Under the pieces are notes generated by a model, which did not search any database, was not told where the DNA came from, and saw only the letters and a list, made by a program, of their open reading frames with translations. 64,000 nucleotides of DNA from Panax quinquefolius. Lineage: Eukaryota > Streptophyta > Magnoliopsida > Apiales > Araliaceae. This document shows positions 1,386-53,398 of the stretch, in pieces. How positions within the stretch are numbered: position 1 is the first letter of the stretch; each line of letters begins with the position of its first letter. The DNA lies in contig CM035173.1 in the NCBI GenBank assembly GCA_020205615.1, positions 47,420,617-47,484,616 of the forward strand, written 5' to 3'. The position numbers and the translations under genes are program-made.

Positions 1386-2349
1386 TGTGATAGCCCCGAA
1401 TCCGGGTCCCAAATCACCGCGGATCCGGTACAATCATTCTACAACTATTGCGGAAGATATAAAAATAAATTGTTTATACAGTACACTTTACACATTATTC
1501 CCCAAAATCGAGTAACCTTAACTTATACACAAATCATAAACTATCTAACACATAACATTATTATCCAACTATACTATTACAAACTAGTCACACATTTTAT
1601 CCCAAGCTGAACTTGGCATTATCCTTTTTCCTGTATCCGAACGCATTCGCCTTATCTACAATGTTTATCATGATATAGTAAGGGTGAGCATGAAAGTTGC
1701 CCAGCAAGTTTAAATACAATTTAAGGATATATCATGATTGAAAGAGTTTGAATAATAAGCTGGCTATAATTCATCAATATAATTGAGAACTAGCACGAAC
1801 AAACTTTTGACTAAACAAGTATTGAACATGATCAAATATATCTGGACCAACTGGTAATGAAGGTGATCAGCCTTTCATACTTGACTTATACATGCAATAT
1901 GTACAGAGTACAATTATCCATGGAAATCAGTAATGATTAACCATAAGCATATCTGAATGAAACAACTCTTAGTAGAGTTAAGTAAAACTTGCATGAACCG
2001 TTGATTACCGCTACACAATTTATAACGCTTTATCCGAAGACCTAATATTAGTAATATAGATCTCCAATATTAGAATAATATCATCACAATATAATACTAT
2101 TATATATATACACATAGAATAACCTAAACACATAGCACATAATCCTATCAGTCTACAATACACATAAGACTTAGCATCAAGTCAGACTATTTAAGTCTGA
2201 GTTGAACCCGACAAAAATTCTAACATCCTGACGGTCAAGTCGGACAATCATCGAGTTTAAGTTCAATTAAACTCTGCCTAAACACTTAACAATATCTTAG
2301 AAAAATTTCTTATCAGTTAAAACAATTTTCATAGACTTGTAATAATTTT

Positions 2350-3060
2350 CAAATAACAACTACCTTTAATTCACTTAATATTATTAATCTTGATAATATT
2401 TAATTCCCCTCTTAGTATTACTAGTTCACTAATAACACTTTTATCCGCTTAATAATATTATTAATATCTTAATAATATTTTAATCTTTATCTTAATATTT
2501 TTAATTCTCTTAATTATATTTTAATCATGCATTAATATTATTACCTTAATAATATCTTACTTATGCTTTTAGTATCATTAATCAATTAATAATACTTTTA
2601 GTCGATTTTACCAATCGTATTAATATTTTATTTATTTACTAATATTATTAATCATTTAATAATATTTTATTCATTTACTAATGTTATTACATTAATAACA
2701 TTTTATTTAATCTCGAATATTATTATTTACTCAATAATATTTTAATCATCCAATAATACTTTAACTTAATATTATTAATCTAAGATTAATATCTTAATCT
2801 AATATTATTAATCATTTAATAATACTTTAATCATTTAATAATATCTTATTTATTAATATCTTATTCCATTACTAATATTATTAATTATTTAATAATATTT
2901 TAATCATTTATTTTGTGCTTAAATCAAATATTATTAACCATTTAATAATATTTTATAGAAATCTTAAATCTTAATATTTTATTTACTTAACAATATCATA
3001 TTCTAATATTATTAATATCATAATAATATTTTAATAATTTATTGGATTAATAAACAATTT
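2350..3060. repeat. AT-rich hairpin-forming block, LTR1
   Basis: About 700 bp made almost only of A and T, built from repeated AATATTATTAAT and ATTTAATAATATTTTAAT words. The words are near-complementary (AATATTATT against AATAATATT), so neighbouring units can pair as hairpins or cruciforms. The same block recurs near 8590-9310 (LTR2), 33100-33790 (LTR3), 39340-40020 (LTR4) and 48060-48790 (LTR6). It differs in copy number between LTRs and is deleted from LTR5. Confidence 0.75.
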
Positions 3061-4158
3061 ATTCTAATTGTTCACCCTTTATTAAACCTCTTATTTAATA
3101 TCCATAAAAGGTCATAAATGATATTTCTTATCATAAATCACCAAAATGGCCTAAGACAGTCATGATATAACATATTATGAGTATTCAAGCATAAAAATCA
3201 CATTTTTCTTATTAAAGACATCATTTAACTATTTATTTCCTTTTATTCATAACTTAATCATTTTTAGGAAAAATAGGAAACTGATTTAAAAAATTCTCAA
3301 CTTCTGGATTTTGACATAATATGAACCAACAATGATCCCTAAATTTTTTCGGAATTTTAGAAAATGATTTACTATTTTTAAAGTGCCCAAAACACTCGGA
3401 TCTTGCTTCATTTTTCATAAATTGAGTTTTGCTCAGAAACATCTGAAATTTTTCGGGTATGCTCTCCTAACATACATGAACATACTGTAAAGATTTCGGA
3501 ATTTTCCAGTGTATACACAGTGAGATATTCGAAGGTTAATATTTCGAAGTCCTTTCCGGAAAATAGCCATTACGCACAACCTATACATCGGAACGCGTCC
3601 GTTCTTTTTCCTACATGTAGATAACTTCTTAAGGTAACTCTGTGATTTTTCCTAGATTTTTAAAAGACTAGCAATGGATAGAAACAGCCTCAAGAAAAAT
3701 GAGAACAATAACTATTTTAGGGTTTTGAACCCTTAAAATTCAAAGTAGACTATTTTGGGGAAAACAGCCCCCAAGGTTTCAAAACTTGCTAGATTTGTGT
3801 TCTAACACTTGGGTTTACTAGGTAACTCATGTATCTAGCACCACTCTTCGACGGATCACAAATCCAAGTTGTAAAACTTGAGTTACACAAGATTTAGTGG
3901 AAGAAAAACAAGAGTTTTCACCCTTGGAGAACATATGCTCATTTTCTTCCTCTAAGCCTTTGATCCAACACTCAAGATACTTAGTTCCATACATGACGAT
4001 ATGTAGAACAAGGGTATCTTGAGTATTTGTTCATAAACCCAACAAAACTCAAGCTATAAAACAAAGTAGAAGAAGAAAATGAAAGTTAGGTTATACCTTG
4101 ATTTAATGGCTACCTTCCTTGATTTGCCAAAGTAAGTAATGAACTTAGGATGCATCAA

Positions 4159-4347
4159 TTAACCTAGCACACCTCTCCCTCCCTTGCTCTCTCTCTCAAA
4201 GCCGAACCTCTCTCTCTTGAAGTTGCTAGCTTGGGACAAAAAGTTAGAAGAAGAAGAATGAGAGAAAGTGGAGTATTCTAGCAAATGAAATGGTTGATTC
4301 ATTATTATCCACCATATTTTCCTTGTCCCATGGATAAAAGGCTTCAC
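4159..4347 (-). CDS. Recurrent short ORF in LARD LTR leader (62 codons)
   Basis: Starts MKPFIHGTRKIW, is Ser-rich in the middle and ends in a basic segment (RERFGFERESKGGRG). It begins about 160 bp downstream of the LTR TATA run on the sense strand, so it could lie early in the transcript. Closely similar versions occur at 10411-10599 (LTR2), 41106-41300 (LTR4) and 49868-50053 (LTR6). In LTR3 it is broken by expanded CT/GA runs. There is no known domain. Conservation may only reflect young copies, so treat it as hypothetical. Confidence 0.2.
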   Translation of the reverse strand: MKPFIHGTRKIWWIIMNQPFHLLEYSTFSHSSSSNFLSQASNFKRERFGFERESKGGRGVLG

Positions 4348-4504
4348 CTTATCCCTTTCAATTAAGCCTAATCATGTGGTTAAGAGTGCTTAATAGATTT
4401 TTAACCAATGAGAGCTTGACACCCATGTACTTGTGTGTAAGAGTTACTAATTATGGATATTGTTTAGCTTAATTAGTTGCCTTAAAAGGCCTAATAGGGC
4501 CAGC

Positions 4505-4514
4505 TATATATATA
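4505..4514 (-). promoter_or_regulatory. TATA run of LARD LTR1
   Basis: A TATATATATA run about 1.28 kb inside the LTR, upstream of a GA-rich leader on the sense (minus) strand, placed as an RNA polymerase II TATA element between U3 and R. Equivalents are at 35221-35231 (LTR3), 41461-41468 (LTR4) and 50211-50220 (LTR6). In LTR2 element A is inserted exactly here. The transcription start is not determined. Confidence 0.45.
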
Positions 4515-5103
4515 CTAATTCCTTCATTTAGCCTTTATTTTAATGCATAAATTAGATAAATCAAAGGTCTAAAATACCCTTAATCAAGTAGACTAAGTTT
4601 GGGCTTGCATTTTATTTCTTTTGGGCTTCCCCTTTAATTGTTTTGGGCCATGTAATGAACATAGTCTAACAAATTTAATATATGCTACCTAAATTGTTTA
4701 TTTAGGGTTTCCATTTCCAATCTTATAAAATTTAATTACTTATACATGTGACTTTAGCTCATAACCTAATTAGGTTTACACGAAATAGGTTTAAAATTAT
4801 TAGTCACTTGAAGTAACAAAATTATCCACTTAAGTTAGTATACATATAAATACTAATCTTTCCTTATTACCATAACCTTAGGTTATTTAATTGTCTCACC
4901 TAATGTATAATTAGGTTATGAAGCTTTCATTTTTTTAATGAAATTTATAAATGTATATATCCATAACTATAGTATATATGTTTATTGATCCATGCACCAC
5001 TTCACATATGTTGTCACATATTAAATCACTGTATAACACAAAGTTTTAAATATCAATAATGTACATACATATATAGTGACTTAAAATTCACGGTTATTAA
5101 CCC

Positions 5104-5488
5104 TTAGGGTTTTCAAAAAATAGAAAATTAATATTTCTAAATTGTAATTAGGATTCTCGAATTAAATTAAACTTTCCCATTCATAAATCAATTTTGTTAA
5201 TTAGGATTATTTATCCCAATTTAAATTGGTAATTTAGCAATTAAGTCAACAATTGTACATTAGGGTTTCTGACGGAACAATTAGGGTTTAAAAATCTAAA
5301 ATTAGAGTTTGCTAATTAATTAAGCTTTACCCTAATTAATATTATAATTAATATCACTTAAGCATTATAATTATCCTTTAAATTCCCAGATTAGGGTTTT
5401 CAATTTCCAAATTAGGGTTTTGGATTCCAAAAACTGAAATTAGGGTTTCAGAACAAGTTTTAGGGTTTCTTATCAATCATTAGGGTTT
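5104..5488 (-). promoter_or_regulatory. Telobox cluster in U3 of LARD LTR1 (8 sites)
   Basis: Exact TTAGGGTTT (telobox AAACCCTAA on the sense strand) lies at 5104, 5260, 5281, 5391, 5412, 5440, 5460 and 5480. A ninth position near 5518 has one mismatch here and is exact in several other LTRs. Spacing is irregular, so this is not a telomeric tract. Two more sites occur near 4704 and 3717. Teloboxes are bound by TRB/Myb-type proteins in plants and can recruit Polycomb group factors; a role here is inferred from position in U3. Confidence 0.7.
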
Positions 5489-5788
5489 TCTAACTGAATG
5501 TTGTCGTTCTTAATAATATTAGGGTCTAACACTGATAAAATTTATCTGGCCAACCCTTGACCCTTAACCACATACTGTGCACACATAATACCATATTCAC
5601 ATAACATAAACACATATACACTTAATCCTGAATAATTCACCTAAATCCTTCACAGAATTTTGAAATCCTCAAAATTCCTTCCCAAAAATATCAAACGCAT
5701 ACACTCATTTTCTGTCTAGGTCTATCATTTGACCTTAAATTCATCATTTAAAATTTTAATAAATTGTCTGATTTCTCGGATCGTCACA

Positions 5789-7627
5789 TTCACCCCTTCT
5801 TTTAAAAATTTCGTCCCCAAAATTTACCTTATACCTTACTCCTTATACCATGCGCTATACACCATTCATACACATCATCACATGCTACCCAATACATCAC
5901 TCACATGAGTAAAAGTTTTTAAATTTGTGCTGAGGGGTCATATAGACCATGAACACATAGTTTTAACGGTATTCCTACCGCAAAACAGTACATTACTTGG
6001 TATGTTTACAATCACAAAGAAGGTAAACTACCATTACTAGTACTTTAGGTGATTAGCCTATCGTACCCTTACGTCATGCATAACGTATTAATTATGTCTA
6101 GCGAATATTTACGCTATTAGATTGGATTATTTATCCAAACAACATAGTTCACCTCAGTCTTATCATAGGATTCCGCACCAAAACAATTTGGTTCGAGAAA
6201 TTTCTTTCAATGAACACTTAGAGTTTTCATAAACATTAGTCTAGCTGAATCGAATAGCGTAGACTCACATCAATAATTCAATACAATCGAATTATTTAGG
6301 TGTAGCCAAACCCTGTTGGCAAACTAAATTTTGGAAAATATTTTCGAGAATGACGTCATGATGCCGTACTGTATTAACAGTCCGTTTGAGGATGTCGTCG
6401 TCGTATGAATTTGTCATAACACATCATACAATAGTGGAACAATGATTTTTAGATCGAATTCACACTAAGTATTCTTGTATTTACAACTCCATCAACTTTT
6501 TATCATCTCAGCACCAGGTTACATGGTACATAAGTGAAAAATAAAATATATTTTGATATTTCAAATATTTTGTGTCTAGCTGAAATAAGTAGCATAGATT
6601 ATACTTTAATAGTTTAAAAATGATTACAGTCTACATATTTTTTTAAAAGCACATAGTGCGTATTTAGCTTGATGTCAAAATTTCGAAGTCTAGCATAGCT
6701 AGGAGTTTTGGAAAGCTTATGTCTCCACTAATGATCATTTGCTTAAACAGTCTATCTATTCTTATTATCCTTAATACTCCATTTACACACAACTATACCC
6801 AGTTCGTCAAACCACACTTAAGTTTTCATGAACTTGCCACAATCATATGAGTTTAAGAACTTGTCCTAGACAGACATTTGGCGTCCATTGCTGAGGGGTT
6901 CATAAACATTTCATATAACTATGACTCAAGAATGTCACATAAGTATAAGTTTTAAGAACTCATACTTAACCTTATATTCTCTATCTATGACCTATCTACC
7001 TGTTATACACATGAGAAAGGAATCACCCTCTTAACATGCATATAGCAAATAACGTGACACAAACATTTTAATGATTATGAGTGTCATAAACTAAGTGGTT
7101 TTTACACCAAGTACAATTCCCCCGCCCATACAAGGAATCATACAACTCAGCTGCTGACACGAGTCCTCAATTGAATCCCCACCTATTACTAACCCCCTTT
7201 TCAATATGAATTTCATTTAATCCGTATTCTTTCATGAATTTGTACCAATTTATAGTACAACTTGCACACAACATTCTTGCTGTAAACTTTCCAATCATCA
7301 GATTGATTCTTTTTCCATATTATAACCTTATCAGATCAAGGAGTGATCTCATCGTATATATTACAATTTATTTCTCTGTCTTGATCGTTTTGTTTTACGA
7401 TCTCCTATCCCTGTACTTTCAGTCTTTTAGACTCGATCTATTCACCACTACTGTTTAAATTTATTATCAGAGTTAGGGAACTCTATGTCTTAACAACTCG
7501 CCGAGATTCGTCTTTGAATCTTACCGATCAACTAACTCTATGCGAGTTAGATCTTATTCCAATTAATACGGTTATTGGTCTCAGGTATTCCTACCTAAGG
7601 TTCATAACCAACAACTTTAATACCAAC
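5789..7627 (-). mobile_element. LARD internal region 1 (1839 bp, non-coding)
   Basis: Lies between two LTRs. On the minus strand a PBS-like GTTGGTATTAAAG follows the end of LTR2 (7628), and a purine tract with GACGAAATTTTTAAAAG precedes the start of LTR1 (5788). The GACGAAATTT word is shared with chromovirus 3' ends in this window, tying the LARD to that clade. No gag, protease, RT or integrase motif is seen. A plus-strand (antisense) ORF of 74 codons at 7234-7458 matches part of a 120-codon ORF in other internals. Confidence 0.75.
7608..7627 (-). other. PBS of LARD (iMet-type, diverged), adjacent to LTR2
   Basis: Immediately after the LTR end the minus strand reads GTTGGTATTAAAGTTG, related to the tRNA-iMet-complementary PBS (TGGTATCAGAGC) but altered at its 3' part. 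The same site is better kept next to LTR7 (GTTGGTATCAAAG, 53325-53338). It sets the element's orientation as minus strand. Confidence 0.6.
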
Positions 7628-10600
7628 TGTGATAGCCCCAAAACAAATCACCGCGGATCTGGTACAATCATTCTACAAATATTGCGGAAGATATAAACAT
7701 ACATTGTTTATACAGTACACTTTACACACTATTCCCCAAAATCGAGTAACCTTAACTTATACACAAATCATAAACTATCTAACACATAACATTATTATCC
7801 AACTATACTATTACAAACTAGCCACACATTTTATCCCAAGCTGAACTTGGCATTATCCTTTTTCCTGTATCCGAACGCATTCGCCTTATCTACAATGCTT
7901 ATCATGATATAGCAAAGATGAGCATGAAAGTTGCCCAGCAAGTTTAAATACAATTTAAGGATATATCATGATTGAAAGAGTTTGAATAATAAGCTGGCTA
8001 TAATTCATCAATATAATTGAGAACTAGCACGAACAAACTTTTGACTAAACAAGTATTGAACATGATCAAATATATCTGGACCAACTGGTAATGAAGGTGA
8101 TCAGCCTTTCATACCTGACTTATACATGCAATATATAGAGAGTACAATTATCCATGGAAATCAAAGAATGATTAACCATAAGCATATCTGAATGAAACAA
8201 CTCTTAGTAGAGTTAAGTAAAACTTGCATGAACCATTGATTCTGAATTCTGCAATTTATAACGCTTTATCCGAAGACCTAATATTAGTTATATAGATCTC
8301 CAATATTAGAATAATATCATCACAATATAATACTATTATATATATACACATAGAATAACCTAAACACATATGTACATAATCCTATCACCACAATACACAT
8401 AAGACTTAGCATCAAGTCGATTTATTTAAGTCCGAGGTTGAACCCTAACAAAAATTCTAACATCCCGATGATTCAAAGTCGGACAATCATCGAGTTTAAG
8501 TTCAATTAAACTCTGCCTAAATACTTAACAATATCTTAGAAAATTTTCTTATCAGTTAAAATAATTTTCATAGACTTGTAATAATTTTCAAATAACAACT
8601 ACCTTTAATTCACTTAATATTATTAATCTTGATAATATTTAATTCCCTCTTAGTATTACTAGTTCACTAATAACACTTTTATCCGCTTACTAATATTATT
8701 AATATCTTAATAATATTTTAATCTGTATCTTAATATTTTTAATTACATTAATTATATTTTAATCATGCATTAATATTATTACCTTAATAATATCTTACTT
8801 ATGCTTTAGTATCATTAATCAATTAATAATACTTTTAGTCGTTTACCAATCGTATTAATATTTTATTTATTTACTAATATTATTAATCATTTAATAATAT
8901 TTTATTCATTTACTAATGTTATTACATTAATAACATTTTATTTAATCTCGAATATTATTATTTACTCAATAATATTTTAATCATCCAATAATACTTTAAC
9001 TTAATATTATTAATCTTTTAATAATATTTTAATCTAAGATTAATATCTTAATCTAATATTATTAATCAATTAATAATACTTTAATCATTTAATAATATCT
9101 TATTTATTAATATCTTATTCCATTACTAATATTATTAATTATTTAATAATATTTTAATCATTTATTGGTGCTTAAATCAAATATTATTAACCATTTAATA
9201 ATATTTTATAGAAATCTTAATCTTAATATTTTTATTTACTTAAAAATATCATATTCTAATATTATTAATATCATAATAATATTTTAATAATTTATTGGAT
9301 TAATAAACAATTTATTCTAATTGTTCACCCTTTATTAAACCTCTTATTTAATATCCATAAAAGGTCATAAATGATATTTCTTATCATAAATTACCAAAAT
9401 GGCCTAAGATAGTCATGACATAACATATTATGAGTATTCAAACATAAAAATCACATTTTTCTTATTAAAGACATCATTTAACTATTTATTTCCTTTTATT
9501 CATAACTTAATCATTTTTAGGAAAAATAGGAAACTGATTTAAAAAATTCTCAACTTCTGGATTTTGACAGAATATGAACCAACAATGATCCCTAAATTTT
9601 TCCGGAATTTTAGAAAATGATTTACTATTTTTAAAGTGCCCAAAACTCTCGGATCTTGCTTCATTTTTCATAAATTGAGTTTTGCTCAGAAACATCTGAA
9701 AATTTCAGGGTATGCTCTCCTAACATACAAGAACATACTATAAAAATTTCGGAATTTTCCAGTGTATACACAGTGAGATATTCGAATGTTAATATTTCGA
9801 AGTCTTTTATGGAAATAGCCATTACGCACAACCTATACATCGGAACGGGTCCGTTTCTATTCCTACATGTAGATAACTTCTTAAGGTACCTCTGTGATGT
9901 TTCCCAGATTTTTAAAAGACTAGCAATGGATCGAAACAGCCACAAGAAAAATGGGAACAATAACTATTTTAGAGTTTTGAACCCTTAACATTCAAAGTAG
10001 ACTGTTTTGGGGAAAACAACCCCAAAGGTTTCAAAACTTGCTAGATTTGTGTTCTACCACTTGGCTTTACTAGGTAACTCATGTTTCTAGCACCCCTCTT
10101 CGACGGATCACAAATCCAAGTTGTAAAACTTGACTTACACAAGATTTAGTGGAAGAAAAACAAGAGTTTTCACCCTTGGAGAATATATGCTCATTTTCTT
10201 CCTCTAAGCCTTTGATCCAACACTCAAGATACTTAGTTCCATACATGATGATATGTAGAACTAGGGTATCTTGAGTATTTGATCATAAACCCAACAAAAC
10301 TCAAGCTATAAAACAAAGTAGAAGAAGAAAATGAAAGTTAGGTTATACCTTGATTTAATGGCTACCTTCCTTGATTTGCCAAAGTAAGTAATGAACTTAG
10401 GATGCATCAATTAACCTAGCACACCTCTCCCTCCCTTGCTCTCTCTCTCAAAACCGAACCTCTCTCTCTTGAAGTTGCTAGCTTGGGACAAAAAGTTAGA
10501 AGAAGAAGAATGAGAGAAAGTGGAGTATTCTAGCAAATGAAATGGTTGATTCATTATTATCCACCATATTTTCCTTGTCCCATGGATAAAAGGCTTCACC

Positions 10601-10760
10601 TTATCCCTTTCAATTAAGCCTAATCATGTGGTTAAGAGTGCTTAATAGATTTGCAACCAATGAGAGCTTGACAACCATGTATTTGTGTGTAAGAGTTACT
10701 AATTATGGATATTGTTTAGCTTAATTAGTTGCCTTAAAAGGCCTAATAGAGCCAGCTATA
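7628..10760 (-). mobile_element. LARD LTR2, left (downstream) part
   Basis: The U5-side ~3.1 kb of LTR2, interrupted at its TATA run by element A; the U3 side resumes at 29137. It contains the AT-rich block (about 8590-9310), a 99-codon sense-strand ORF (9661-9960) also found at 34119-34418 and, shorter, at 49118-49402, and the 62-codon leader ORF (10411-10599). None of these ORFs carries a recognisable domain. Confidence 0.8.
10411..10599 (-). CDS. Recurrent short LARD leader ORF, LTR2 copy
   Basis: 62 codons, near-identical to the copy at 4159-4347 (same MKPFIHGTRKIW start). It is separated from its U3 by the insertion of A/B. Hypothetical, no domain. Confidence 0.15.
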   Translation of the reverse strand: MKPFIHGTRKIWWIIMNQPFHLLEYSTFSHSSSSNFLSQASNFKRERFGFERESKGGRGVLG

Positions 10761-12113
10761 TGTAAGACCCCAAATTATTAATAAATGAAATTTATTTTCC
10801 TCTATTTATTATTTTTGAAATAGTAAGGGTTGATTTGATTAATGTGGATAGTTATGGGTAAAATACGCAAATATTTCGAATAAGCAAGTGGTTATAAAAT
10901 ATTCATTATTGTCGGAGAATATTCGTTTGGTCGTGGAATATTAGTATTGTCGGGGAATATTCGTACGACGGCGCAGTCTTTTATGGGCCCCATAACGGAA
11001 AGCGATTGGATGAAGAAAATGACAAATATAAGTTGTTTATAAATAACTTGGCGTAGTTATTACCAATTAATCTTTGTTGGAATACCCGGTGGTTAAAAAC
11101 ACACTTGTCTGGCGTTGTTGAACGATAGACACGGTATTGCACCAATTATTGATTCTTACGTGAAGGCACTACTCAATAATTGTTACGGTAATTCTTGATT
11201 CGTATTTTATTTTATTGATTCAATAATTGTTGCGTTGATATTTTATATTACCGTTGTTTCAATAAATTGTCATTACACAGTATTTTCCATTATCGGAGCA
11301 ATAATTCATATTATTTGAATAATATTATTAGAAAACATTATTGGCAATGTCTAGAAAGTTCTTTCTAAGGAGAGGTTTGGTCACCTAATTGCGCGCCAGT
11401 AAGGAGAAATTCTTATTAGAAAGCCCCTCTTTCACAGGAACTACTGGTTGCCAAGATCTTGTGATTCTGTAATATTATTTGTGAATAATTAATTATTGAT
11501 TTATATGATGAGGAAAATATTGATTTTATGTGGATATAGATGGAGAAAATTTTTAAAGTGACAATTGTTGAAAATTAATATTTTATCTTTTTCTGATAAA
11601 ATAATTCATTTAAATATATTATTTTAATAATATATTAACGGTGATATTTTTATAATGAATGTGGGATATATGAGTATATGAGGAGGAAGAGTATTTTGTG
11701 GTAATAAATGTTTAACACATATTTTGTGTGTTGGTGGACACATTATTATTGACCAAATTTGATTATAGCTTGTAAAATCGCTTGGTTTGTGGATTTTGGT
11801 CGATTTCATTTGGAATTTGGAAAAACTTTCTTACGCAAAGTTGTAGAGAATTGAATTTCCTATAAAAAGTCACATGATTCAAATTTTTACGACAAAAGGA
11901 CTATTTATTATGAATTATTGAAGTTTCAAGTTCAAATAATTGATTTTTGGGAGTTTTAATTAATTATTTTGAGAAAACGTTTTTGGTGAGTTTGTGAACC
12001 TCATTTAACATGTGCTATGGCTGAAATCAGATTTCAAAGATGGGCTAAGGAATTTTGTTTATAAATAATATTATTATATTCAATTTTCTACTTTTGTGTG
12101 TTAAGCAAATTTC

Positions 12114-12121
12114 TATAAATA
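12114..12121 (+). promoter_or_regulatory. TATA box of element A 5' LTR
   Basis: TATAAATA followed by a short GC-containing stretch and a CT-rich leader, typical of plant LTR promoters. Counterparts: 17857-17864 (B 5' LTR), 25291-25298 (B 3' LTR) and 27708-27715 (A 3' LTR). Confidence 0.6.
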
Positions 12122-12395
12122 GGGAGCTTAGGTTAGAATTGAAAATCATACCGTAAACTGAAGTTTTCTCTCTATTTCTCTCTCGATATTTTGAGCGTAT
12201 TCTTGTGAGTATACTTTGAGTGTTGATATCTGGTGCAAGTTCAAGTCATAGCCTTTATCCAGGTTTCAACTAGAAGTCTTGTCTTTCGAGGTAAGGGATG
12301 TTATTTTATTCGAAAATGATATTATTTCTTCAATATCATTATCTTAGAAATATTGGTTGGAAATTTTATCAAATTTGGAACTTTTTTCATGTCGG

Positions 12396-12482
12396 GGTTA
12401 CTAATCATGAGTTACTATTCACGAGTTACTATTCATGAGTTACTATTCACGAGTTACTTATTCACGAGTACTATTCACGAAG
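12396..12482 (+). repeat. TACTATTCACGAG-type tandem repeat in LTR leader
   Basis: About six 13-16-bp units alternating CATGAGTTACTATT and CACGAGTTACTATT. Equivalent arrays lie at 18129-18212, 25566-25640 and 27990-28074, and on the minus strand in C at 53990-54065 and 59158-59221. They sit 250-300 bp downstream of the TATA box in A and B. Confidence 0.65.
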
Positions 12483-13562: not shown

Positions 13563-13582
13563 GTTATCAGAGCTTAGGGATA
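13563..13582 (+). other. PBS of element A
   Basis: GTTATCAGAGCTTAGGG directly follows the LTR. It matches the tRNA-iMet PBS (TGGTATCAGAGC) with loss of part of the GG. It fixes the + orientation. Confidence 0.65.
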
Positions 13583-13749
13583 TGATCTCTGGCGGAGATC
13601 GGGGAATAGAACTAGGAGGGGAGAGATGAGTAAATCCTTCGCTAGTATGTCCTACCTAAGCTTATTTGTTGGTTGGTCATAATATAGGGGTATTATGTGA
13701 TTTGTTAATTTATTTAATTAACCCTTGTTTTTTTATGATAGTTTTTAAG

Positions 13750-15070: not shown

Positions 15071-15079
15071 TATTTCTTG

Positions 15080-16195: not shown

Positions 16196-16231
16196 CCAGT
16201 CGTCACGACAATTTCGAGGGACGAAATTTCA

Positions 16232-41300: not shown

Positions 41301-42713
41301 CTTATCCCTTTTAATTAAGCCTAATCATGTGGTTGAGAGTGCTTAATAGATTTGCAACCAATGAGAGCTTGACAACCATGTACTTGTGTGTAAGAGTTAC
41401 TAATTATGGACATTGTTTAGCTTAATTAGTTGCCTTAAAAGGCCTAATAAGACCCGGCTATATATATACCCACTAATTCCTTCATTTAGCTTTTATTTTA
41501 ATGCATAAATTAGATAAATCAAAGGTCTAAAATACCCTTAATCAAGTAGACTAAGTTTGGGCTTGCATTTTATTTCTTTTGGGCTTCCCCTTTAATTGTT
41601 TTGGGCTATGTAATAAACATAGTCTAACAATTTTAATATATGTTACCCAATTTGATTATTTAGGGTTTTCATTTCCTAATCTTATGAAATTTAATTACTT
41701 ATACATGTGACTTTAGCTCATAACCTAATTAGGTTTACTAGAAATAGGTTTAAAATTATTAGTCACTTGAAATAACAAAATTATCCACTTAAGTTAGTAT
41801 ACATATTAAATACTAATCTTTCCTTATTACCATAACCTTAGGTTATTTAATTGTCTCACCTAATGTATAATTAGGTTCTGAAGCTTTCATTTTTTAATGA
41901 AATCTATAAATGTATATATCCATAACTATAGTATATATGTTTATTGATCCATGCACCACTTCACATATGTTGTCACATATTAAATCTTTGTATAACACAA
42001 AGTTTTAAATATCGATAATATACATACATATATAGTGACTTAAAATTCACGGTTATTAACCCTTAGGTTTTCAAAAAAATAAAAATTAATATTTCTAAAT
42101 TGTAATTAGGATTCTCGAATTAAATTAAACTTTCCCATTCATAAATCAATTTTGTTAATTAGGATTATTTTATCCCAATTTAAATTGCTAATTTAGCGAT
42201 TAAGTCGACAATTGTACATTAGGGTTTTAACGGAACAATTAGGGTTTAAAAATTTAAAATTAGAGTTTGCTAATTAATTAAGCTTTACCCTAATTAATAT
42301 TATAATTAATATCACTTAAGCATTATAATTATCCTTTAAATTCCCAGATTAGGGTTTTTAATTTTACGAATTAGGGTTTGGATTCCGGGCTGAAATTAGG
42401 GTTTGAGAAGCGGTTTTAGGGTTTCTTATCGGTCGTTAGGGTTTTCTAGCTGAGCGTTGGCGTTTTAATAATAATATTAGGGTTTAACTTGATAAAATTT
42501 ATCTGTGACCCTTGACCCTTAACCACCACATAATAACAATATTCACAGAACATAAACACATATACACTTATTCTGAATAATTCACCTAAATCCTTCACGA
42601 ATTTTGAAATCCTCAAAATTCCTTCCCAAAAATATCAACAGAACATATTCACAGTTATATCATTTGACCTTAATCATCATTTAAAATTTAATAAAATTTC
42701 TCGGGTTGTCACT
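38353..42713 (-). mobile_element. LARD LTR4 (about 4360 bp, scrambled start)
   Basis: The right 100 bp (the LTR start) is irregular, with short segments repeated or missing from 42640 onward. The rest is collinear. AT-rich block at 39340-40020, leader ORF (64 codons) at 41106-41300, TATA at 41461, teloboxes at about 42220-42490. Confidence 0.75.
41106..41300 (-). CDS. Recurrent short LARD leader ORF, LTR4 copy
   Basis: 64 codons, starting MKPFIRGTRKIW. It differs from other copies by GA-run length changes near its C-terminus that stay in frame. Hypothetical. Confidence 0.15.
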   Translation of the reverse strand: MKPFIRGTRKIWGIIMNQPFHLLEYSTFSHSSSSNFFSQASNFKREKEREVRFLREREERGVLG

Positions 42714-44504
42714 TCACCACTTCTTTTTTGAAATCCTCAAAATTTACCTTACACCTTTCCTTATACCATGCGCTAAAACACATCATCACACGCAATACAC
42801 CACTCTGAGTAAAAGTTTTCAAATTTTCTTTGAGGGGTCATATAGATCTATGAACACATAGTTTTAGCAGTTTGACCTTAAATCAATCATTACTTGGTAA
42901 GATTTTAATAAATTGTCTAATTTCTAGGTGGTTGTCTTACGTCATCATACATAGCGTATTAATTATGTCTACAGCGAATATTTACGCTATTAGATTGGAT
43001 TATTTATCCAAACAACATAGTTCACCTCAGTCTTATCATAGGATTCCGCACCAAAATAATTTGGTTCGAGAAATTTCTTTCAATGAACACTTAGAGTTTT
43101 CATAAACATTATTCTAGCTGAATCGAATAGCGTAGACTCACATCAATAATTCAATTCAATCGAATTATTTAGGTGTAGCCAAACCCCGTTGGCAAACTAA
43201 AATTTGGAAAACATTTTAGAGAATGACGTCATGATCCCGTACTGTATTAACAGTCCGTTTGAGGATGTCGTCATCGTATGAATTTGTCATAACACATCAT
43301 ACAATAGTGGAACAATGATTTTTAGATCGAATTCACACTAAGTATTCCTGTATTTACAACTCCATCAACTTTTTATCATCTCTGCACCAGGTTACATGGT
43401 ACATAAGTGATAAATAAAATATATTTTGATATTTCAAATCTTTTGTGTCTAGCTGAAATAAGTAGCATAGACTATACTTTAAACCGTTTTAAAAATGATT
43501 ACGAGTCTACATATTTTTTTTAAAAAGCACATAGTGCGTATTTAGCTTGATGTCAAAATTTCGAAGTCTAGCATAGCTAGGAGTTTTGGAAAGCTTATGT
43601 CTCCACTAATGATCATTTGCTTAAACAGTTTATCTATTCTTATTATCCTTAATACTCCATTTACACACAACTATACCTAGATCGTCAAACCACACTTATG
43701 TTTTCATGAACTTGCCACAATCATATGAGTTTAAGAACTTGTCCTAAACAGACCTTTGGCGTCCATTGCTGAGGGGTTCATAAACATTTCATATAAGTAT
43801 GAGTCAAGAATGTCACATAAGTATAAGTTTTAAGAACTCGTACTTAACCTTATATTCTCTATCTATGACCTATCTACCTGTTATACACATGAGAAAGGAA
43901 TCACCCTCTTAACATGCATATAGCAAATAACGCGACACAAACATTTCAATGATTATCAGTGCCAGAAACTAAGTGGTTTTTACACCAAGTACAATTCCCC
44001 GCCCATACAAGGAATCATACAACTCAGCTGCTGACACGAGTCCTCAATTGAATCCCCACCTATTACTAACCCCCTTTTCAATACGAATTTCATTTAATCC
44101 GTATTCTTTCATGAATTTGTACCAATTTATAGTACAACTTGCACACAACATTCTTGCTGTAAACTTTCCAATCATCAGATTGATTCTTTTTCCATATTAT
44201 AACCTTATCAGATCAAGGAGTGATCTCATCGTATATATTATGATTTATTTCTATGTCTTGATCATTTTGTATTACGATCTCTTATCCCTCTACTTTCAGT
44301 CTTTTAGACTCGATCTATTCACCACTACTGTTTAACTTTATTATCAGAGTTAGGAAACTCTGTGTCTTAACAACTCGCCGAGATTCGTCTTTGAATCTTA
44401 CCGATCAACTAACTCTATGTGAGTTAGATCTTATTCCAATTAATACGGTTATTGGTCTCAGGTATTCCTACCTAAGGTTCATAACCATCAACTTTAATAC
44501 CAAC
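42714..44504 (-). mobile_element. LARD internal region 4 (1791 bp, patchwork left end)
   Basis: From 42720 to 42940 the sequence mixes pieces of the LTR start (GACCTTAAATC, GATTTTAATAAATTG) with expected internal pieces, replacing about 200 bp. To the right it is collinear and carries the 120-codon antisense ORF (43973-44335). The PBS adjoins LTR5. Confidence 0.7.
43973..44335 (+). CDS. Recurrent antisense ORF, internal 4 copy
   Basis: 120 codons, near-identical to 31599-31961. Hypothetical, hydrophobic C-terminal half, opposite to the element's sense. Confidence 0.18.
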   Translation: MVFTPSTIPRPYKESYNSAADTSPQLNPHLLLTPFSIRISFNPYSFMNLYQFIVQLAHNILAVNFPIIRLILFPYYNLIRSRSDLIVYIMIYFYVLIILYYDLLSLYFQSFRLDLFTTTV

Positions 44505-45873
44505 TGTGATAGCCCCGAACCAAATCACCGCGGATCCGGTACAATCATTCTACAACTATTGCGGAAGATATAAACATAAATTGTTTATATAGTACACTTT
44601 ACACACTATTCCCCAAAATCGAGTAACCTTAACTTATAAACAAATAATAAACTATCTAACACATAACATTATTATCCAACTATACTATTACAAATTAGCC
44701 ACACATTTTATCCCAAACTGAACTTGGCATTATCCTTTTTCCTGTATCCGAACGCATTCGCCTTATCTACAATGTTTATCATGATATAGCAAGGGTGATC
44801 ATGAAAGTTGCCCAGCAAGTTTAAATACAATTTAAGGATATATCATGATTGAAAGAGTTTGAATAATAAAATTATTATTATTATTATTAGTCACTTGAAA
44901 TAACAAAATTATCCACTTAAGTTAGTATACATATAAATACTAATCTTTCCTTATTACCATAACCTTAGGTTATTTAATTGTCTCACCTAATGTATAATTA
45001 GGTTATGAAGCTTTATTTTTTAATGAAATCTATAAATGTATATATCCATAACTATAGTATATATGTTTATTGATCCATGCACCACTTCACATATGTTGTC
45101 ACATATTAAATCACTGTATAACACAAAGTTTTAAATATCAATAATGTACATACATATATAGTGACTTAAAATTCACGGTTATTAACCCTTAGGGTTTTCA
45201 AAAAATTAAAAATTAATATTTCTAAATTGTAATTAGGATTCTCGAATTAAATTAAACTTTCCCATTCATAAATCAATTTTGTTAATTAGGATTATTTATC
45301 CCAATTTAAATTGCTAATTTAGCAATTAAGTCAACAATTGTACATTAGGGTTTCTGACGGAATAATTAGGGTTTAAAAATCTGAAATTAGAGTTTGCTAA
45401 TTAATTAAGCTTTACCCTAATTAATATTATAATTAATATCACTTAAGCATTATAATTATCCTTTAAATTCCCAGATTAGGGTTTTCAATTTCCGAATTAG
45501 GGTTTCGGATTCCCAGAACTGAAATTAGGGGTTCAGAACCAGTTTTAGGGTTTCTTATCAGTCATTAGGGTTTTCTAACTGAACGTTGTCGTTCTTAATA
45601 ATATTAGGGTTTAACACTGATAAAATTTATCTGGCCAACCCTTGACCCTTAACCACATACTGTGCACACATAATACCATATTCACAGAACATAAACACAT
45701 ATACACTTAATCCTGAATAATTCACCTAAATCCTTCACAGAATTTTGAAATCCTCAAAATTCCTTTCCAAAAATATCAAACGCATACACTCATTATCTGT
45801 CTAGGTCTATCATTTGACCTTAAATCCATCATTTAAAATTTTAATAAATTGTCTGATTTCTCGGGTTGTTACA
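44505..45873 (-). mobile_element. LARD LTR5, internally deleted (1369 bp)
   Basis: Keeps about 365 bp of the U5 end and about 1 kb of U3 with teloboxes (about 45187-45610), but lacks the ~3.0 kb between them. That removes the TATA run, leader ORF and AT-rich block. The junction at 44868-44891 is a (TTA)n tract. The LTR start reads TGTAACAACCC, one base off the others. It cannot act as a promoter in the way of the full LTRs. Confidence 0.8.
44868..44891. repeat. (ATT)n tract at deletion junction
   Basis: A short AATAATAAAATTATTATTAT run joins two LTR parts that are 3 kb apart elsewhere. AT-rich repeats flanking the lost segment could have served as the recombination substrate. Confidence 0.75.
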
Positions 45874-47096
45874 TTCACCACTTCTTTTAAAAATTTCGTC
45901 CCCAAAATTTACCTTACACCTTACTCCTTATACCATGCGCTATACACCATTCATACACATCATCACATGCTACCCAATACACCACTCACATGAGTAAAAG
46001 TTTTCAAATTTGTGCTGAGGGGTCATATAGACCATGAACACATAGTTTTAACGGTATTCATACCGCAAAACAGTACATTACTTGGTATGTTTACATATTT
46101 TTTTTAAAAGCACATAGAGCGTATTTAGCTTGATGTCAAAATTTCGAAGTCTAGCATAGCTAGGAGTTTTGGAAAGCTTATGTCTCCACTAATGATCATT
46201 TGCTTAAACAGTCTATCTATTCTTATTATCCTTAATACTCCATTTACACACAACTATACCCAGTTCGTCAAACCACACTTATGTTTTCATGAACTTGCCA
46301 CAATCATATGAGTTTAAGAACTTGTCCTAGACAGACCTTTGGCGTCCATTGCTGAGGAGTTCATAAACATTTCATATAAGTATGAGTCAAGAATGTCACA
46401 TAAGTATAAGTTTTAAGAACTCGTACTTAACCTTATATTCTCTATCTATGACCTATCTACCTGTTATACACATGAGAAAGGAATCACCCTCTTAACATGC
46501 ATATAGCAAATAACGCGACACAAACATTTCAATGATTATCAGTACCAGAAACTAAGTGGTTTTTACACCAAGTACAATTCCCAGCCCATACAAGGAATCA
46601 TCTGACTCAAATTGCCGAACCACGAGTCCTCAATTGAATCCCCACCTATTACTAACCCCCTTTTCAATACGAATTTCATTTAATCCGTATTCTTTCATGA
46701 ATTTGTACCAATTTATAGTACAACTTGCACACAACATTCTTGCTGTAAACTTTCCAATCATCAGATTGATTCTTTTTCCATATTAAAACCTTATCAGATC
46801 AAGGAGTGATCTCATCGTATATATTACGATTTATTTCTATGTCTTGATCATTTTGTTTTACGATCTCTTATCCCTGTACTTTCAGTCTTTTAGACTCGAT
46901 CTATTCACCACTACTGTTTAACTTTATTATCAGAGTTAGGGAACTCGTGTCTTAATAACTTCATCGCAGAGATTCGTCTTTGAATCTTCTCGATCAACTA
47001 ACTAACTCTATGTGAGTTAGATCTTATTCAATTAATACGGTTATTGGTCTCAGGTATTCCTACCTAAGGTTCATAACCATCAACTTTAATATCAAC
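45874..47096 (-). mobile_element. LARD internal region 5, deleted (1223 bp)
   Basis: About 620 bp are missing at 46095, where TATGTTTACA runs directly into the TATTTTTTTTAAAAG segment. It retains both PBS and PPT ends and a shortened antisense ORF (46556-46786) ended by a TATAAC to TAAAAC-type change. Confidence 0.75.
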
Positions 47097-50000
47097 TGTG
47101 ATAGCCCCGAACCAAATCACCGCGGATCCGGTACAATCATTCTACAACTATTGCGGAAGATATAAACAAAAATTGTTTATACAGTACACTTTACACACTA
47201 TTCCCCAAAATCGAGTAACCTTAACTTATACACAAATCATAAACTATCTAACACATAACATTACAACTATACTATTACAAACTAGCCACACATTTTATCC
47301 CAAGCTGAACTTGGCATTATCCTTTTTTCTGTATCCGAACGCATTCGCCTTATCTACAATGTTTATCATGATATAGCAAGGGTGAGCATGAAAGTTTCCC
47401 AGCAAGTTTAAATACAATTTAAGGATATATCATGATTGAAAGAGTTTGAATAATAAGCTGGCTATAATTCATCAATATAATTGAGAACTAGCACAAACAA
47501 ACTTATAAGCGAACAAGTATTGAACATGAACAAATATATCAGGACCATTTGGTAATGAAGGTGATCGACCTTTCATATACGACTTATACATGCATTATAT
47601 ACAGTACAATTATCCATGGCAATCAGCAATGATTAACCATAAGCATATCTGAATGAAACAACTCTTAGTAGAGTTAAGTAAAACTTGCATGAACTGTTGA
47701 TTACCGCTACACAATTTATAACGCTTTATCCGAAGACCTAATATTAGTAATATAGATCTCCAATATTAGAATAATATCATCACAATATAATACTATTATA
47801 TATATACACATAGAATAACCTAAACACATAGCACATAATCCTATCAGTCTACAATACACATAAGACTTAGCATCAAGTCAAACTATTTAAGTCTGAGTTG
47901 AACCCGACAAAAATTCTAACATCCCGACGGTCAAGTCGGACAATCATCGAGTTTAAGTTCAATTAAACTCTGCCTAAACACTTAACAATATCTTAGAAAA
48001 TTTTCTTATCAGTTAAAACAATTTTCATAGACTTGTAATAATTTTCAAATAACAACTACCTTTAATTCACTTAATATTATTAATCTTGATAATATTTAAT
48101 TCCCCTCTTAGTATTACTAGTTCACTAATAACATTTTTATCCGCTTACTAATATTATTAATATCTTAATAATATTTTAATACTGTACTAATATTTTTAAT
48201 TCTCTTAATTATATTTTAATCATGCATTAATATTATTACCTTAATAATATCTTACTTATGCTTTAGTATCATTAATCAATTAATAATACTTTTAGTCGAT
48301 TTTACCAATCATTATTAATATTTTATTTATTTACTAATATTATTAATAATTTAATAATATTTTATTCATTTACTAAAGTTATTACATTAATAACATTTTA
48401 TTTAATCTCGAATATTATTATTTACTCAATAATATTTTAATCATCCAATAATACTTTAACTTAATATTATTAATCTTTTAATAATATTTTAATCTAAGAT
48501 TAATATCTTAATCTAATATTATTAATCATTTAATAATACTTTAATCATTTAATAATATCTTATTTATTAATATCTTATTCCATTACTAATATTATTAATT
48601 ATTTAATAATATTTTAATCATTTATTGGTGCTTAAATCAAATATTATTAACCATTTAATAATATTTTATAGAAATCTTAATCTTAATATTTTATTTACAT
48701 AAAATATCATATTCTAATATTATTAATATCATAATAATATTTTAATAATTTATTGGATTAATAAACAATTTATTCTAATTGTTCACCCTTTATTAAACCT
48801 CTTATTTAATATCAATAAAAGGTCATAAATGATATTTCTTATCATAAATTACCAAAATGGCCTAAGATAGTCATGATATAACATATTATGAGTATTCAAG
48901 CATAAAATCATATTTTTCTTATTAAAGACATCATTTAACTATTTATTTCCTTTTATTCATAACTTAATCATTTTTAGGAAAAATAGGAAACTGATTTAAA
49001 AAATTCTTAACTTCTGGATTTTGATAGAATATGAATGAAAAATGATCCCTAAATTTTTCTGGAATTTTAGAAAATGATTTACTATTTTTAAAGTGCCCAA
49101 AACACTCGGATCTTGCTTCATTTTTCATAAATTAATTTTTGCTCAGAAACATCTGAAATTTTCAGGGTATGCTCTCCTAACATACATGAACATACTGTAA
49201 AAACTTCGGAATTTTCCAGTGTATACACAGTGAGATATTTGAAGGTTAATATTTCGAAGTCCTTTTCGGAAATAGCCATTACGCACAACCTATACATCGA
49301 AACGCGTCCGTTCTTTTTTCTACATGTAGATAACTTCTTACGGTACCTCTGTAATTTTTTGTAGATTTTTAAAAGACTAGAAATGGATCGAAACAGCCTC
49401 AAGAAAAACGGGAACAGTAACTATTTTAGGGTTTTGAACCCTTAACATTCAAAGTAGACTGTTTTGGGGAAAACAACCCCAAAGGTTTCAAAACTTGCTA
49501 GATTTGTATTCTACCACTTGAGTTTACTAGGTAACTCATGTATCTAGCACCCCTCTTCGACGGATCACAAATCCAAGTTGTAAAACTTGAGTTACACAAG
49601 ATTTAGTGGAAGAAAAACAAGAGTTTTCACCCTTGGAGAACATATGCTCATTTTCTTCCTCTAAGCCTTTGATCCAACACTCAAGATACTTAGTTCCATA
49701 CATGATGATATGTAGAACTAGGGTATCTTGAGTATTTGTTCATAACCCCAACAAAACTCAAGCTATAAAACAAAGTAGAAGAAGAAAATGAAAGTTAGGT
49801 TATACCTTGATTTAATGGCTACCTTCCTTGATTTGCCAAAGTAAGTAATGAACTTAGGATGCATCAATTAACCTAGCACACCTCTCCCTCCCTTGCTCTC
49901 TCTCTCAAAGCCGAACCTCTCTCTCTTGAAGTTGCTAGCTTGGGACAAAAAGTTAGAAGAAGAATGAGAGAAAGTGGAGTATTCTAGCAAATGAAATGGT

Positions 50001-51494
50001 TGATTCATTATTATCTCCCATATTTTCCTTGTCCCATGGATAAAGGGCTTCACCTTATCCCTTTCAATTAAGCCTAATCATGTGGTTGAGAGTGCTTAAT
50101 AGATTTGCAACCAATGAGAGCTTGACAACCATGTACTTGTGTGTAAGAGTTACTAATTATGGATATTGTTTAGCTTAATTAGTTGACTTAAAAGGCCTAA
50201 TAGGGCCAGCTATATATATACTAATTCCTTCATTTAGCCTTTATTTTAATGCATAAATTAGATAAATCAAAGGTCTAAAATACCCTTAATCAAGTAGACT
50301 AAGTTTGGGCTTGCATTTTATTTCTTTTGGGCTTCCCCTTTAATTGTTTTGGGCCATGTAATGAACATAGTCTAACAAATTTAATATATGCTACCCAAAT
50401 TGTTTATTTAGGGTTTTCATTTCCAATCTTATAAAATTTAATTACTTATACATGTGACTTTAGCTCATAACTTAATTAGGTTTACACGAAATAGGTTTAA
50501 AATTATTAGTCACTTGAAATAACAAAATTATCCACTTAAGTTAGTATACATATAAATACTAATCTTTCCTTATTACCATAACCTTAGGTTATTTAATTGT
50601 CTCACCTAATGTATAATTAGGTTATGAAGCTTTCATTTTTTTAATGAAATCTATAAATGTATATATCCATAACTGTAGTATATATGTTTATTGATCCATG
50701 CACCACTTCACATATGTTGTCACATATTAAATCACTGTATAACACAAAGTTTTAAATATCAATAATGTTCATACATATATAGTGACTTAAAATTCACGGT
50801 TATTAACCCTTAGGATTTTCAAAAAATAGAAAATTAATATTTCTAAATTGTAATTAGGATTCTCGAATTAAATTAAACTTTCCCATTCATAAATCAATTT
50901 TGTTAATTAGGATTATTTATCCCATTTTAAATTGCTAATTTAGCAATTAAGTCAACAATTGTACATTAGGGTTTCTGACGAAACAATTAGGGTTTAAAAA
51001 TCTGAAATTAGAGTTTGCTAATTAATTAAGCTTTACCCTAATTAATATTATAATTAATATCACTTAAGCATTATAATTATCCTTTAAATTCCCAGATTAG
51101 GGTTTCTAATTTCTGAATTAGGGTTTCGGATTCCCAGAACTGAAATTAGGGTTTCAGAACTAGTTTTAGGGTTTCTTATCAGTCATTAGGGTTTTCTAAC
51201 TGAACGTTGTCGTTCTTAATAATATTAGGGTTTAACACTGATAAAATTTATCTGGCCAACCCTTAACCCTTAACCACATCACGTGCACATGAGATAATAC
51301 CATATTCGAGAACATAAACACTTATACACTTAATCTGAATAATTCACTAAATCCTTCATGGAATTTTGAAATCCTCAAAATTCCTTCCCAAAAATATCAA
51401 AGCGATACACTCATTTTACATACAGGTTTATCATTTGACCTTAAATCCATCATTTAAAATTTTAATAAATTATGCGATTTCTCGGGTTGTCACA
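47097..51494 (-). mobile_element. LARD LTR6 (intact, 4398 bp)
   Basis: The best-preserved copy together with LTR1. AT-rich block at 48060-48790, 94-codon sense ORF at 49118-49402, leader ORF at 49868-50053 (61 codons), TATA at 50211-50220, telobox cluster about 50930-51235. Confidence 0.82.
49868..50053 (-). CDS. Recurrent short LARD leader ORF, LTR6 copy
   Basis: 61 codons, one Ser codon shorter than the LTR1 copy by loss of one unit of a GAA repeat. In-frame length changes in two copies are consistent with, but do not prove, coding. Hypothetical. Confidence 0.15.
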   Translation of the reverse strand: MKPFIHGTRKIWEIIMNQPFHLLEYSTFSHSSSNFLSQASNFKRERFGFERESKGGRGVLG

Positions 51495-53338
51495 TTCACC
51501 CTTCTTTAAAAATTTCGTCCCCAAAATTTACCTTACACCTTACTCCTTATTCCATGCGCTTATACACCATTCATACACATCATCACATCTTTACCCAATA
51601 CACCACTCACATGAGTAAAAGTTTTCAAATTTGTCTTTGAGGGATCATATAGACCATGAACACATAGTTTTAGCGGTATTCATACCTGAAAGCGAAGACA
51701 TTACTTGGTATGTTTACAATCACAAAGAAGGTAAACTACCATTACTAGTACTTTAGGTGATTAGCCTATCGTACCCTTACGTCATGCATAACGTATTAAT
51801 TATGTCTAGCGAATATTTACGCTATTAGATTGGAATATTTATCCAAACAACATAGTTCACCTCAGTCTTATCATAGGATTCTGCACCAAAACAATTTGGT
51901 TCGAGAAATTTCTTTCAATAAACACTTAGAGTTTTCATAAACATTAGTCTAGCTGAATCGAATAGCGTAGACTCACATCAATAATTCAATTCAATCGAAT
52001 TATTTAGGTATAGCCAAACCCCATTGGCAAACTAAAATTTGGAAAACATTTTTGAGAATGACGTCATGATGCCGTACTGTATTAACAATCCGTTTGAGGA
52101 TGTCGTCATCGTATGAATTTGTCATAACACATCATACAATAGTGGAACAATGATTTTTAGATCGAATTCACACTAAGTATTCCTGTATTTACAACTCCAT
52201 CAACTTTTTATCATTTTTGCACCAGGTTACATGGTACATAAGTTATAAATAAAATATATTTTGATATTTCAAATCTTTTGTGTCTAGCTGAAATAAGTAG
52301 CATAGACTATACTTTAAACGGTTTCAAAAATTATTACGAGTCTACATTTTTTTTAAAAGCACATAGTGCGTATTTAGCTTGATGTCAAAATTTCGAAGTC
52401 TAGCATAGCTAGGAGTTTTGGAAAGCTTATGCCTCCACTAATGATCATTTGCTTAAACAGTCTATCTATTCTTATTATCCTTAATACTCCATTTACATTA
52501 ATAACTATACCCGGTTCATTGAACCACACTTATGTTTTCATGAACTTGCCACAATCATATGAGTTTAAGAACTTGTCCTAGACAGACCTTTGGCGTCCAT
52601 TGCTGAGGGGTTCATAAACATTTCATATAAGTATGAGTCAAGAATGTCACATAAGTATAAGTTTTAAGAACTCGTACTTAACCTTATATTCTCTATCTAT
52701 GACCTATCTACCTGTTATACACATGAGAAAGGAATCACCCTCTTAACATGCATATAGCAAATAACGCGACATAAACATTTCAATGATTATCAGTGCCAGA
52801 AACTAAGTGGTTTTTACACCAAGTACAATTCCCCGCCCATACAAGGAATTATACAACTCAGCTGCCGACACGAGTCCTCAATTGAATCCCCACCTATTAC
52901 TAACCCCCTTTTCAATACGAATTTCATTTAATCCGTATTCTTTCCTGAATTTGTACCAATTTATAGTTCAACTTGCACACAACATTGTTGCTGTAAACTT
53001 TCCAATCATCAGATTGATTCTTTTTCCTTATTATAACCTTTTCAGATCACGGAGTGATCTCATCGTATATATTACGATTTATTTCTATGTCTTGATCGTT
53101 TTGTTTTACGATCTCCTATCCCTGTACTTTCAGTCTTTTAGACTCGATCTATTCACCACTACTGTTTAACTTTATTATCAGAGTTAGGGAACTCTGTGTC
53201 TTCACAACTCGCCGAGATTCGTCTTTGAATCTTACCGATCAACTAACTCTATGTAAGTTAGATCTTATCCTAATTACTGCGGTTATTGGTCTCAGGAATT
53301 CCTACCTAAGGTTCATAACCAACAACTTTGATACCAAC
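51495..53338 (-). mobile_element. LARD internal region 6 (1844 bp)
   Basis: Complete internal, with the clearest PBS at 53325-53338 (GTTGGTATCAAAG on the minus strand) and the 120-codon antisense ORF at 52807-53169. No gag or pol motif. Confidence 0.78.
52807..53169 (+). CDS. Recurrent antisense ORF, internal 6 copy
   Basis: 120 codons, close to the copies at 31599 and 43973, with a few amino-acid changes and no frameshift. Hypothetical. Confidence 0.18.
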   Translation: MVFTPSTIPRPYKELYNSAADTSPQLNPHLLLTPFSIRISFNPYSFLNLYQFIVQLAHNIVAVNFPIIRLILFPYYNLFRSRSDLIVYITIYFYVLIVLFYDLLSLYFQSFRLDLFTTTV

Positions 53339-53398
53339 TGTGATAGCCCCGAATCCGGGTCCCAAATCACCGCGGATCCGGTACAATCATTCTACAAC
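53339..53398 (-). mobile_element. LARD LTR7, truncated to 60 bp
   Basis: Only the last 60 bp of the LTR remain before the sequence switches to element C's LTR. CAAC at 53395-53398 is shared by both partners, which suggests a microhomology-joined deletion of about 4.3 kb of LTR7 together with part of C's LTR. Confidence 0.75.

Follow-up and report, generated by a model that had tools for sequence, protein, structure and literature searches.

We analyzed a window of 64,000 nucleotides from the Panax quinquefolius genome (contig CM035173.1, positions 47,420,617 to 47,484,616), in which positions 1386-53398 are occupied by a tandem array of retrotransposon units. On the minus strand, seven 3' ends of long terminal repeats (LTRs) and six internal regions follow each other in strict LTR-internal-LTR order. 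In a self-BLAST of the window, the region 1386-53401 showed direct repeats that are 6-9 kb long. The LTR 3' end GGGGCTATCACA was found on the minus strand at 1386, 7628, 32131, 44505, 47097 and 53339 and, with two mismatches, at 38353; elsewhere in the window it occurs at up to two mismatches only at 59222. LTR and internal region adjoin directly at every junction, no flanking DNA lies between units, and neighbouring internal regions share a single LTR. Head-to-tail units with shared LTRs had been proposed from an earlier inspection of the letters (hereafter the sequence-only reading), and self-BLAST as well as the positions of the LTR-end motif confirm this. That reading named 5-bp duplications between the LTR pairs as evidence that would speak against it; they are absent, and the abutting junctions leave no room for them.

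Structure and coding capacity of the array

The LTR 3' ends are spaced by 6242, 24503, 6222, 6152, 2592 and 6242 bp. An intact period measures 6.15-6.24 kb and consists of an LTR of ~4.4 kb and an internal region of ~1.84 kb. The second spacing is long because a nested insertion (10761-29136) sits within it, and two deletions in unit 5 shorten the fifth. The regular ~6.2-kb period of the sequence-only reading therefore holds for four of the six intervals and is broken in these two. Similarly, all seven LTR ends that it counted were found, but just five LTRs (LTRs 1, 2, 3, 4 and 6; 4362-4422 bp) are full length. LTR starts are marked by TGTGACAACCC, preceded by the purine-rich AAAAGAAGTGGTGAA, at 5788, 30465, 36503, ~42713 (degraded), 45873 and 51494.

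All units lie on the minus strand. LTR1 (1386-5788, 4403 bp) forms the left edge of the array, which coincides exactly with the LTR terminus, and is followed by internal 1 (5789-7627, 1839 bp) with a primer binding site (PBS)-like sequence at 7615-7626 and its polypurine tract (PPT) side at 5789-5815. LTR2 is split into a left piece (7628-10760), delimited by self-BLAST and the LTR-end motif, and a right piece (29178-30465) preceded by (AT)n. Internal 2 (30466-32130, 1665 bp) has lost ~190 bp. LTR3 (32131-36503), recognized by its LTR-end motif, is followed by internal 3 (36504-38352, 1849 bp), the most divergent of the internal regions, by LTR4 (38353-42713) with its degraded start, and by internal 4 (42714-44504, 1790 bp), whose PPT region at ~42.7 kb is damaged. 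In unit 5, a deletion near 44870 removed ~3.0 kb of LTR5 (44505-45873, 1369 bp remaining) and another near 46090 removed ~0.6 kb of internal 5 (45874-47096, 1223 bp remaining). LTR6 (47097-51494), with its LTR-end motif, precedes internal 6 (51495-53338, 1845 bp), which carries both PBS-like and PPT motifs. The array ends on the right with LTR7 (53339-53398), cut after its first ~60 bp. A truncated chromovirus-like LTR follows, with a short overlap of the CAAC type at the junction. By the naming scheme used in the literature on terminal-repeat retrotransposons in miniature (TRIMs), the array is L7I6 with L7 truncated, and its size without the nested insert is 33 kb. Each full-length LTR also holds AT-rich degenerate tandem repeats of 19-40 bp (2366-3050 in LTR1, with counterparts at this location in LTRs 2, 3, 4 and 6).

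The sequence-only reading had assigned each internal region its own PBS and PPT. The PBS-like TTGGTATYAAAG adjoins the LTR end in all six internal regions (four exact, two with one mismatch). At up to one mismatch it occurs eight times in the window compared to 1.82 expected, a number that none of 100 shuffles reached. We presume a relation to tRNA-Met from the resemblance of this site to TGGTATCAGAGC. As for the PPT, GACGAAATTT was found in five of the six internal regions, the damaged tract of internal 4 falling short of the claim, and also at the PPTs of both nested elements. In total it occurs seven times in the window compared to 0.33 expected, and again none of 100 shuffles reached this number.

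The non-coding nature attributed to the array was supported as well. Three open reading frames (ORFs) of at least 150 aa are present in the window and none of them lies in the array, and none of the three ORF pieces tested from the array gave a Pfam match at an E value of 0.1. tblastn using homolog proteins and ten pieces from the window produced 68 matches in the nested elements and 70 in the right flank but none in the array. Neither a tRNA gene nor an Rfam family at gathering score (e.g. 5S) was found in the window. A frame of 120 aa, which runs antisense to the element, recurs in internals 2, 4 and 6 (31599-31961, 43973-44335 and 52807-53169); Pfam gave no match for two of the three copies, a homolog search was empty, and the frame is probably not a gene.

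Large elements with LTRs, a PBS-like site and a PPT, whose internal regions are devoid of protein coding, correspond to large retrotransposon derivatives (LARDs), which are described as dispersed. Sukkula, a LARD of barley, possesses LTRs of ~4.4 kb and an internal region of ~3.5 kb. The units of the array resemble the Sukkula type in their long LTRs, their internal region without detected coding and their PBS-like and PPT motifs, but their internal region of ~1.84 kb is shorter.

Nested and flanking elements

An insertion of 18.4 kb (10761-29136, plus strand) divides LTR2, and self-BLAST and LTR alignment resolved it into two nested Ty3/gypsy-type elements. The outer element has LTRs at 10761-13562 and at 16254-16542 plus 26647-29136, the latter interrupted by the inner element (16543-26646, plus strand). 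Zinc knuckle and RVP_2 domains (Pfam) were found in the inner element only, and five of seven nested pieces tested had no Pfam match. The inner insertion has ACGTA-like flanks. The outer insertion has CTATA on its left, whereas the right copy is masked by an (AC)n(AT)n run: the target duplication is hidden because a perfect (AT)23 (29144-29190) lies at the right edge, a site at which the array proper contains just a short TATATATATA.

Directly left of the array, 44 bp (1342-1385, minus strand) match the 3' end of a chromovirus-like LTR. They are 93.5% identical to 58216-58261 and 90.9% identical to 26646-26603 (reverse complement), with weaker matches to two others. This piece has 4/47 differences to the LTR at 58 kb; from the four nested LTRs it differs at 4-6 of 42-44 positions, so its sequence alone singles out no best copy. 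To the right of the array lies the presumed target element (minus strand), comprising the remainder of a 3' LTR (53392-55854), a short internal region (55855-58218) with a PBS-like site at 58206-58217, and the 3'-end part of a 5' LTR (58219-59222), which has its terminus at 58219 and is interrupted at 59222. Its two LTR parts match each other in the same orientation (53392-54045 versus 58570-59222, 96% over 652 bp). This arrangement fits an array located within the 3' LTR of another element, 44 bp from the LTR end; that the element is chromovirus-like we assume from the PPT and LTR-end motifs. Most of LTR7, together with ~0.3 kb of the target LTR and any outer target duplication, would have disappeared through a deletion marked by the CAAC-type overlap.

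The 3' LTR of the presumed target also contains two minisatellites (54322-54538, 74 bp x 2.9; 54763-55005, 31 bp x 7.8). Its 5' LTR is interrupted by a 3.1-kb segment (59222-62329) whose minus strand contains gag-like, protease (RVP_2) and partial reverse transcriptase frames; at 62266 the segment has a PBS-like TTGGTATCAGAG. This segment is bounded by 49-bp copies (98% identity) that are inverted rather than direct. Names accompanied five of 21 matches to the neighbouring protease piece; all five belong to Apium or Heracleum (46-51% identity), which points to a flowering plant without narrowing it further.

The array and the neighbouring Ty3/gypsy-type elements have PBS-like, PPT-side and LTR-end motifs in common, as the sequence-only reading had noticed with respect to chromoviruses. 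No BLAST match of at least 300 bp connects the LTRs or internal regions of the array with these neighbours. The descent from chromoviruses deduced from the shared motifs is plausible, but its basis is short cis motifs, and neither a long BLAST match nor a translated match to the neighbours was obtained.

Divergence and mosaic structure of the units

For comparison of the units, unit 5 was split at its deletions and placed as three fragments, since the unsplit alignment inflated distances; the LTR5 rows and the internal 5 rows, except for the pair of internals 2 and 5, were left out as inflated. Pairs of full-length LTRs are 93.8-96.8% identical (10 pairs) and internal regions, excluding internal 5, are 91.1-96.0% identical (10 pairs). 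Whole units diverge by 2.6-6.0% (15 pairs), and are therefore neither the product of recent duplication nor collapsed copies. The divergence is uneven, with 2.6-4.3% among units 1, 2, 5 and 6 compared to 5.3-6.0% in pairs with unit 3 or 4.

The five long units differ at 583 two-state columns, of which 480 are private to one unit and 103 are shared. Units 3 and 4 are jointly distinguished at 40 of the 103 shared sites, all located at or left of 6184 (unit-1 coordinates) and none in the last 1.4 kb of the unit. Unit 5 has the other state at 13 of 13 such sites that it covers. A FastTree phylogeny of the LTRs grouped LTRs 3 and 4 with a support of 1.00, whereas the tree of the internal regions lacked this pairing and grouped 3 with 6 (0.88) and 2 with 4 (0.88). 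We then applied a test of the pairwise homoplasy index (PHI) type to 528 columns (91 shared) that remained after masking two uncertain stretches. The statistic was below that of shuffled columns at windows of 3, 5, 10 and 20 sites (p=0.0005, 0.0005, 0.0005 and 0.0010, respectively). Sawyer-type runs were significant in all 10 pairs; we give more weight to the PHI-type test because unevenness of rates along the unit can produce such runs as well. The conflicting groupings of LTRs and internal regions together with the significant recombination test show that the units are mosaics, a pattern that reflects either exchange of sequence among them or an origin from parents that were already recombinant.

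We wondered how this exchange relates to the nested insertions. Units 1 and 2 diverge by 3.3% (95% confidence interval (CI) 2.6-4.0) and units 2 and 5 by 2.6% (1.8-3.5). The nested LTR pairs diverge by 7.0% (4.8-9.6) for the outer and 5.6% (3.9-7.5) for the inner element. Thus, units 1 and 2 are closer to each other than the LTRs of the outer element that sits inside unit 2, and units 2 and 5 are closer than both nested pairs. If rates were equal, such low divergence would place exchange after the nested insertions, an order for which these values are suggestive only.

Origin of the array

The abutting junctions, the LTR terminus at the sole preserved edge and the mosaic units agree with the expansion of a single insertion through unequal exchange. 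Multiplication in place of a non-autonomous, LARD-like insertion by unequal exchange is the explanation towards which we lean. The founder would have been a protein-less Ty3/gypsy-type derivative with LTRs of ~4.4 kb and an internal region of ~1.84 kb, presumably reliant on the enzymes of another element, which inserted into the 3' LTR of the chromovirus-like element. Misalignment of LTRs or units would then have permitted unequal homologous exchange by crossing over or conversion, at first between the LTRs of the single insertion and later between units, and the insertion would have grown to at least six units with one LTR common to neighbours. Deletions in unit 5 and at the right edge as well as the landing of two retrotransposons in LTR2 would have followed. 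A bolder version, which we find doubtful, is that the array is long-lived and recombinationally active and that its units exchange across 18 kb of later nested insertions. A single protein-less insertion would then homogenise its own units, much as a satellite does, within heterochromatin rich in transposons.

Several observations weigh against growth by unequal exchange. The 480 private sites among 583 produce a near-star tree, which is also expected from one simultaneous origin. The middle units 3 and 4 are the most diverged, whereas the middle of an array is usually the part that rounds of unequal crossing over homogenise. Mosaic units could also be explained by template switching before insertion, and as the right edge is deleted, no outer target duplication is left to compare. 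The order of events suffers from an unsafe clock: divergence of the nested LTRs swings between 0 and 12.5% across 300-bp windows, the unit pairs 2-3, 2-4 and 2-6 have divergences that overlap with those of the nested LTRs, and the pair 1-2 just overlaps with the inner element. Along the LTR stretch shared by the layers, the target pair differs at 26/652 positions compared to 38/743 and 43/694 for the nested pairs (for the target, the pairwise value was used and a multiple-alignment value of 103/638 was rejected as misaligned). The target element must be the oldest and yet is not the most diverged, so LTR divergence does not give a coherent clock from one nested layer to another. For this reason, and as no calibrated rate is at hand, we rejected a molecular date.

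The sequence-only reading had offered two origins, repeated unequal exchange or a concatemer formed before insertion. The mosaic units tip the data towards the former, and we consider the latter unlikely, with some probability left to it. In that case several cDNAs, or a tandem transcript of a one-LTR circle, would have been joined and inserted once with the six units already different. The preponderance of private sites agrees with such an event, and the mosaics resemble the pairwise recombinants of plant transposition bursts described in PMC5668417. The authors of PMC11899658 and PMC7215508 hold this route open. However, a cDNA of more than 37 kb would be required, whose packaging into a particle seems unlikely, and the divergence among units is uneven. 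Moreover, units 1-2 and 2-5 have diverged little in comparison with the insert that unit 2 contains, which suggests that exchange took place later.

Multimeric Ty1 arrays in yeast form by recombination of cDNA with a resident element. In a similar manner, incoming cDNA or other genomic copies might have recombined with the resident element and added diverged units singly by homology. This would account for units 3-4 as a divergent block (portions of LTR3, internal 3, LTR4 and the beginning of internal 4) surrounded by more similar units, and the clustered private changes look like patches of foreign source. Alignment error can also create patches in AT-rich repeats, and we regard this scenario as rather improbable.

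Stitching of copies from different loci or haplotypes into one contig is a concern for 4-6 kb repeats of 95% identity, which are hard for short reads, but such an assembly artefact is very improbable given the unit divergence of 2.6-6.0%, the private indels, the 18.4 kb of nested elements that bridge the two halves of one LTR and the unique sequence arrangements joined at both array edges. An ordinary satellite or segmental duplication that merely resembles a retrotransposon would explain the regular 6.2-kb period in four of six intervals and is hardly credible in view of PBS-like sites in 6/6 and PPT motifs in 5/6 internal regions, LTR ends of the TG...CA type and a left edge that is exactly an LTR terminus. 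Satellites are long arrays of many near-identical monomers, whereas the array has six units that differ by 2.6-6.0% and is bounded on both sides within the window. The term 'satellite-like' used by the sequence-only reading is not supported by six units that cover 33 kb without the nested insert and end at an LTR terminus inside another element. That reading was right in outline and is supported in part.

The novelty that it implied is weaker, as tandem structures with shared LTRs have been published. In one rice genome, 66 tandem candidates of LTR retrotransposons (TLIs) were reported, 28 of them clear (PMC11899658, Morales-Diaz et al. 2025). All 28 carry coding domains and 82% of the gypsy ones belong to Tekay, further tandems are described in Arabidopsis, almond and cotton, and an origin by exchange or concatemer is discussed and left undecided in rice. 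Like the array, TLIs alternate LTRs with internal regions, share LTRs and include gypsy elements. Unlike the array, they contain protein-domain regions, and the two loci presented in detail have two internal regions and three LTRs compared to six non-coding internal regions, seven LTR ends and no surviving outer target duplication here. Protein-less, head-to-tail arrays with shared LTRs are known from TRIMs, which form tandems in 35 of 43 plant genomes with a maize example of up to L5I4 (PMC4717578), and from Cassandra, with up to 12 almost identical repeats (PMC7215508). Their units measure a few hundred bp, whereas those of the array measure 6.2 kb, are 2.6-6.0% diverged and lack an Rfam match such as 5S. 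PMC7215508 also names LARDs of the Sukkula type and cites at least 4600 multi-LTR structures of BARE1 in barley, in which three LTRs and two internal regions arise via LTR recombination. BARE1 is a coding copia element, whereas the array is longer and gypsy-like by motif. A different route leads from short tandem repeats inside Ogre elements to satellites (PMC7004042), and passages of PMC5818461 mention LARDs in coffee without such arrays. Searches of open-licence papers revealed no LARD tandem array of this size. Thus, the kind of structure is already known, and what is less usual here are the six units, their long non-coding nature, their age and their mosaicism.

The layering of target element, array and nested insertions makes exchange before or after later insertions testable, which the rice cases left open. 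The 3-6% divergence between units warns that LTR divergence within such arrays does not provide an insertion date. The locus illustrates how a single retrotransposon insertion without proteins of its own may expand into a tandem locus of 33 kb, which has been proposed as an initial step on the way from a dispersed transposon to a satellite.

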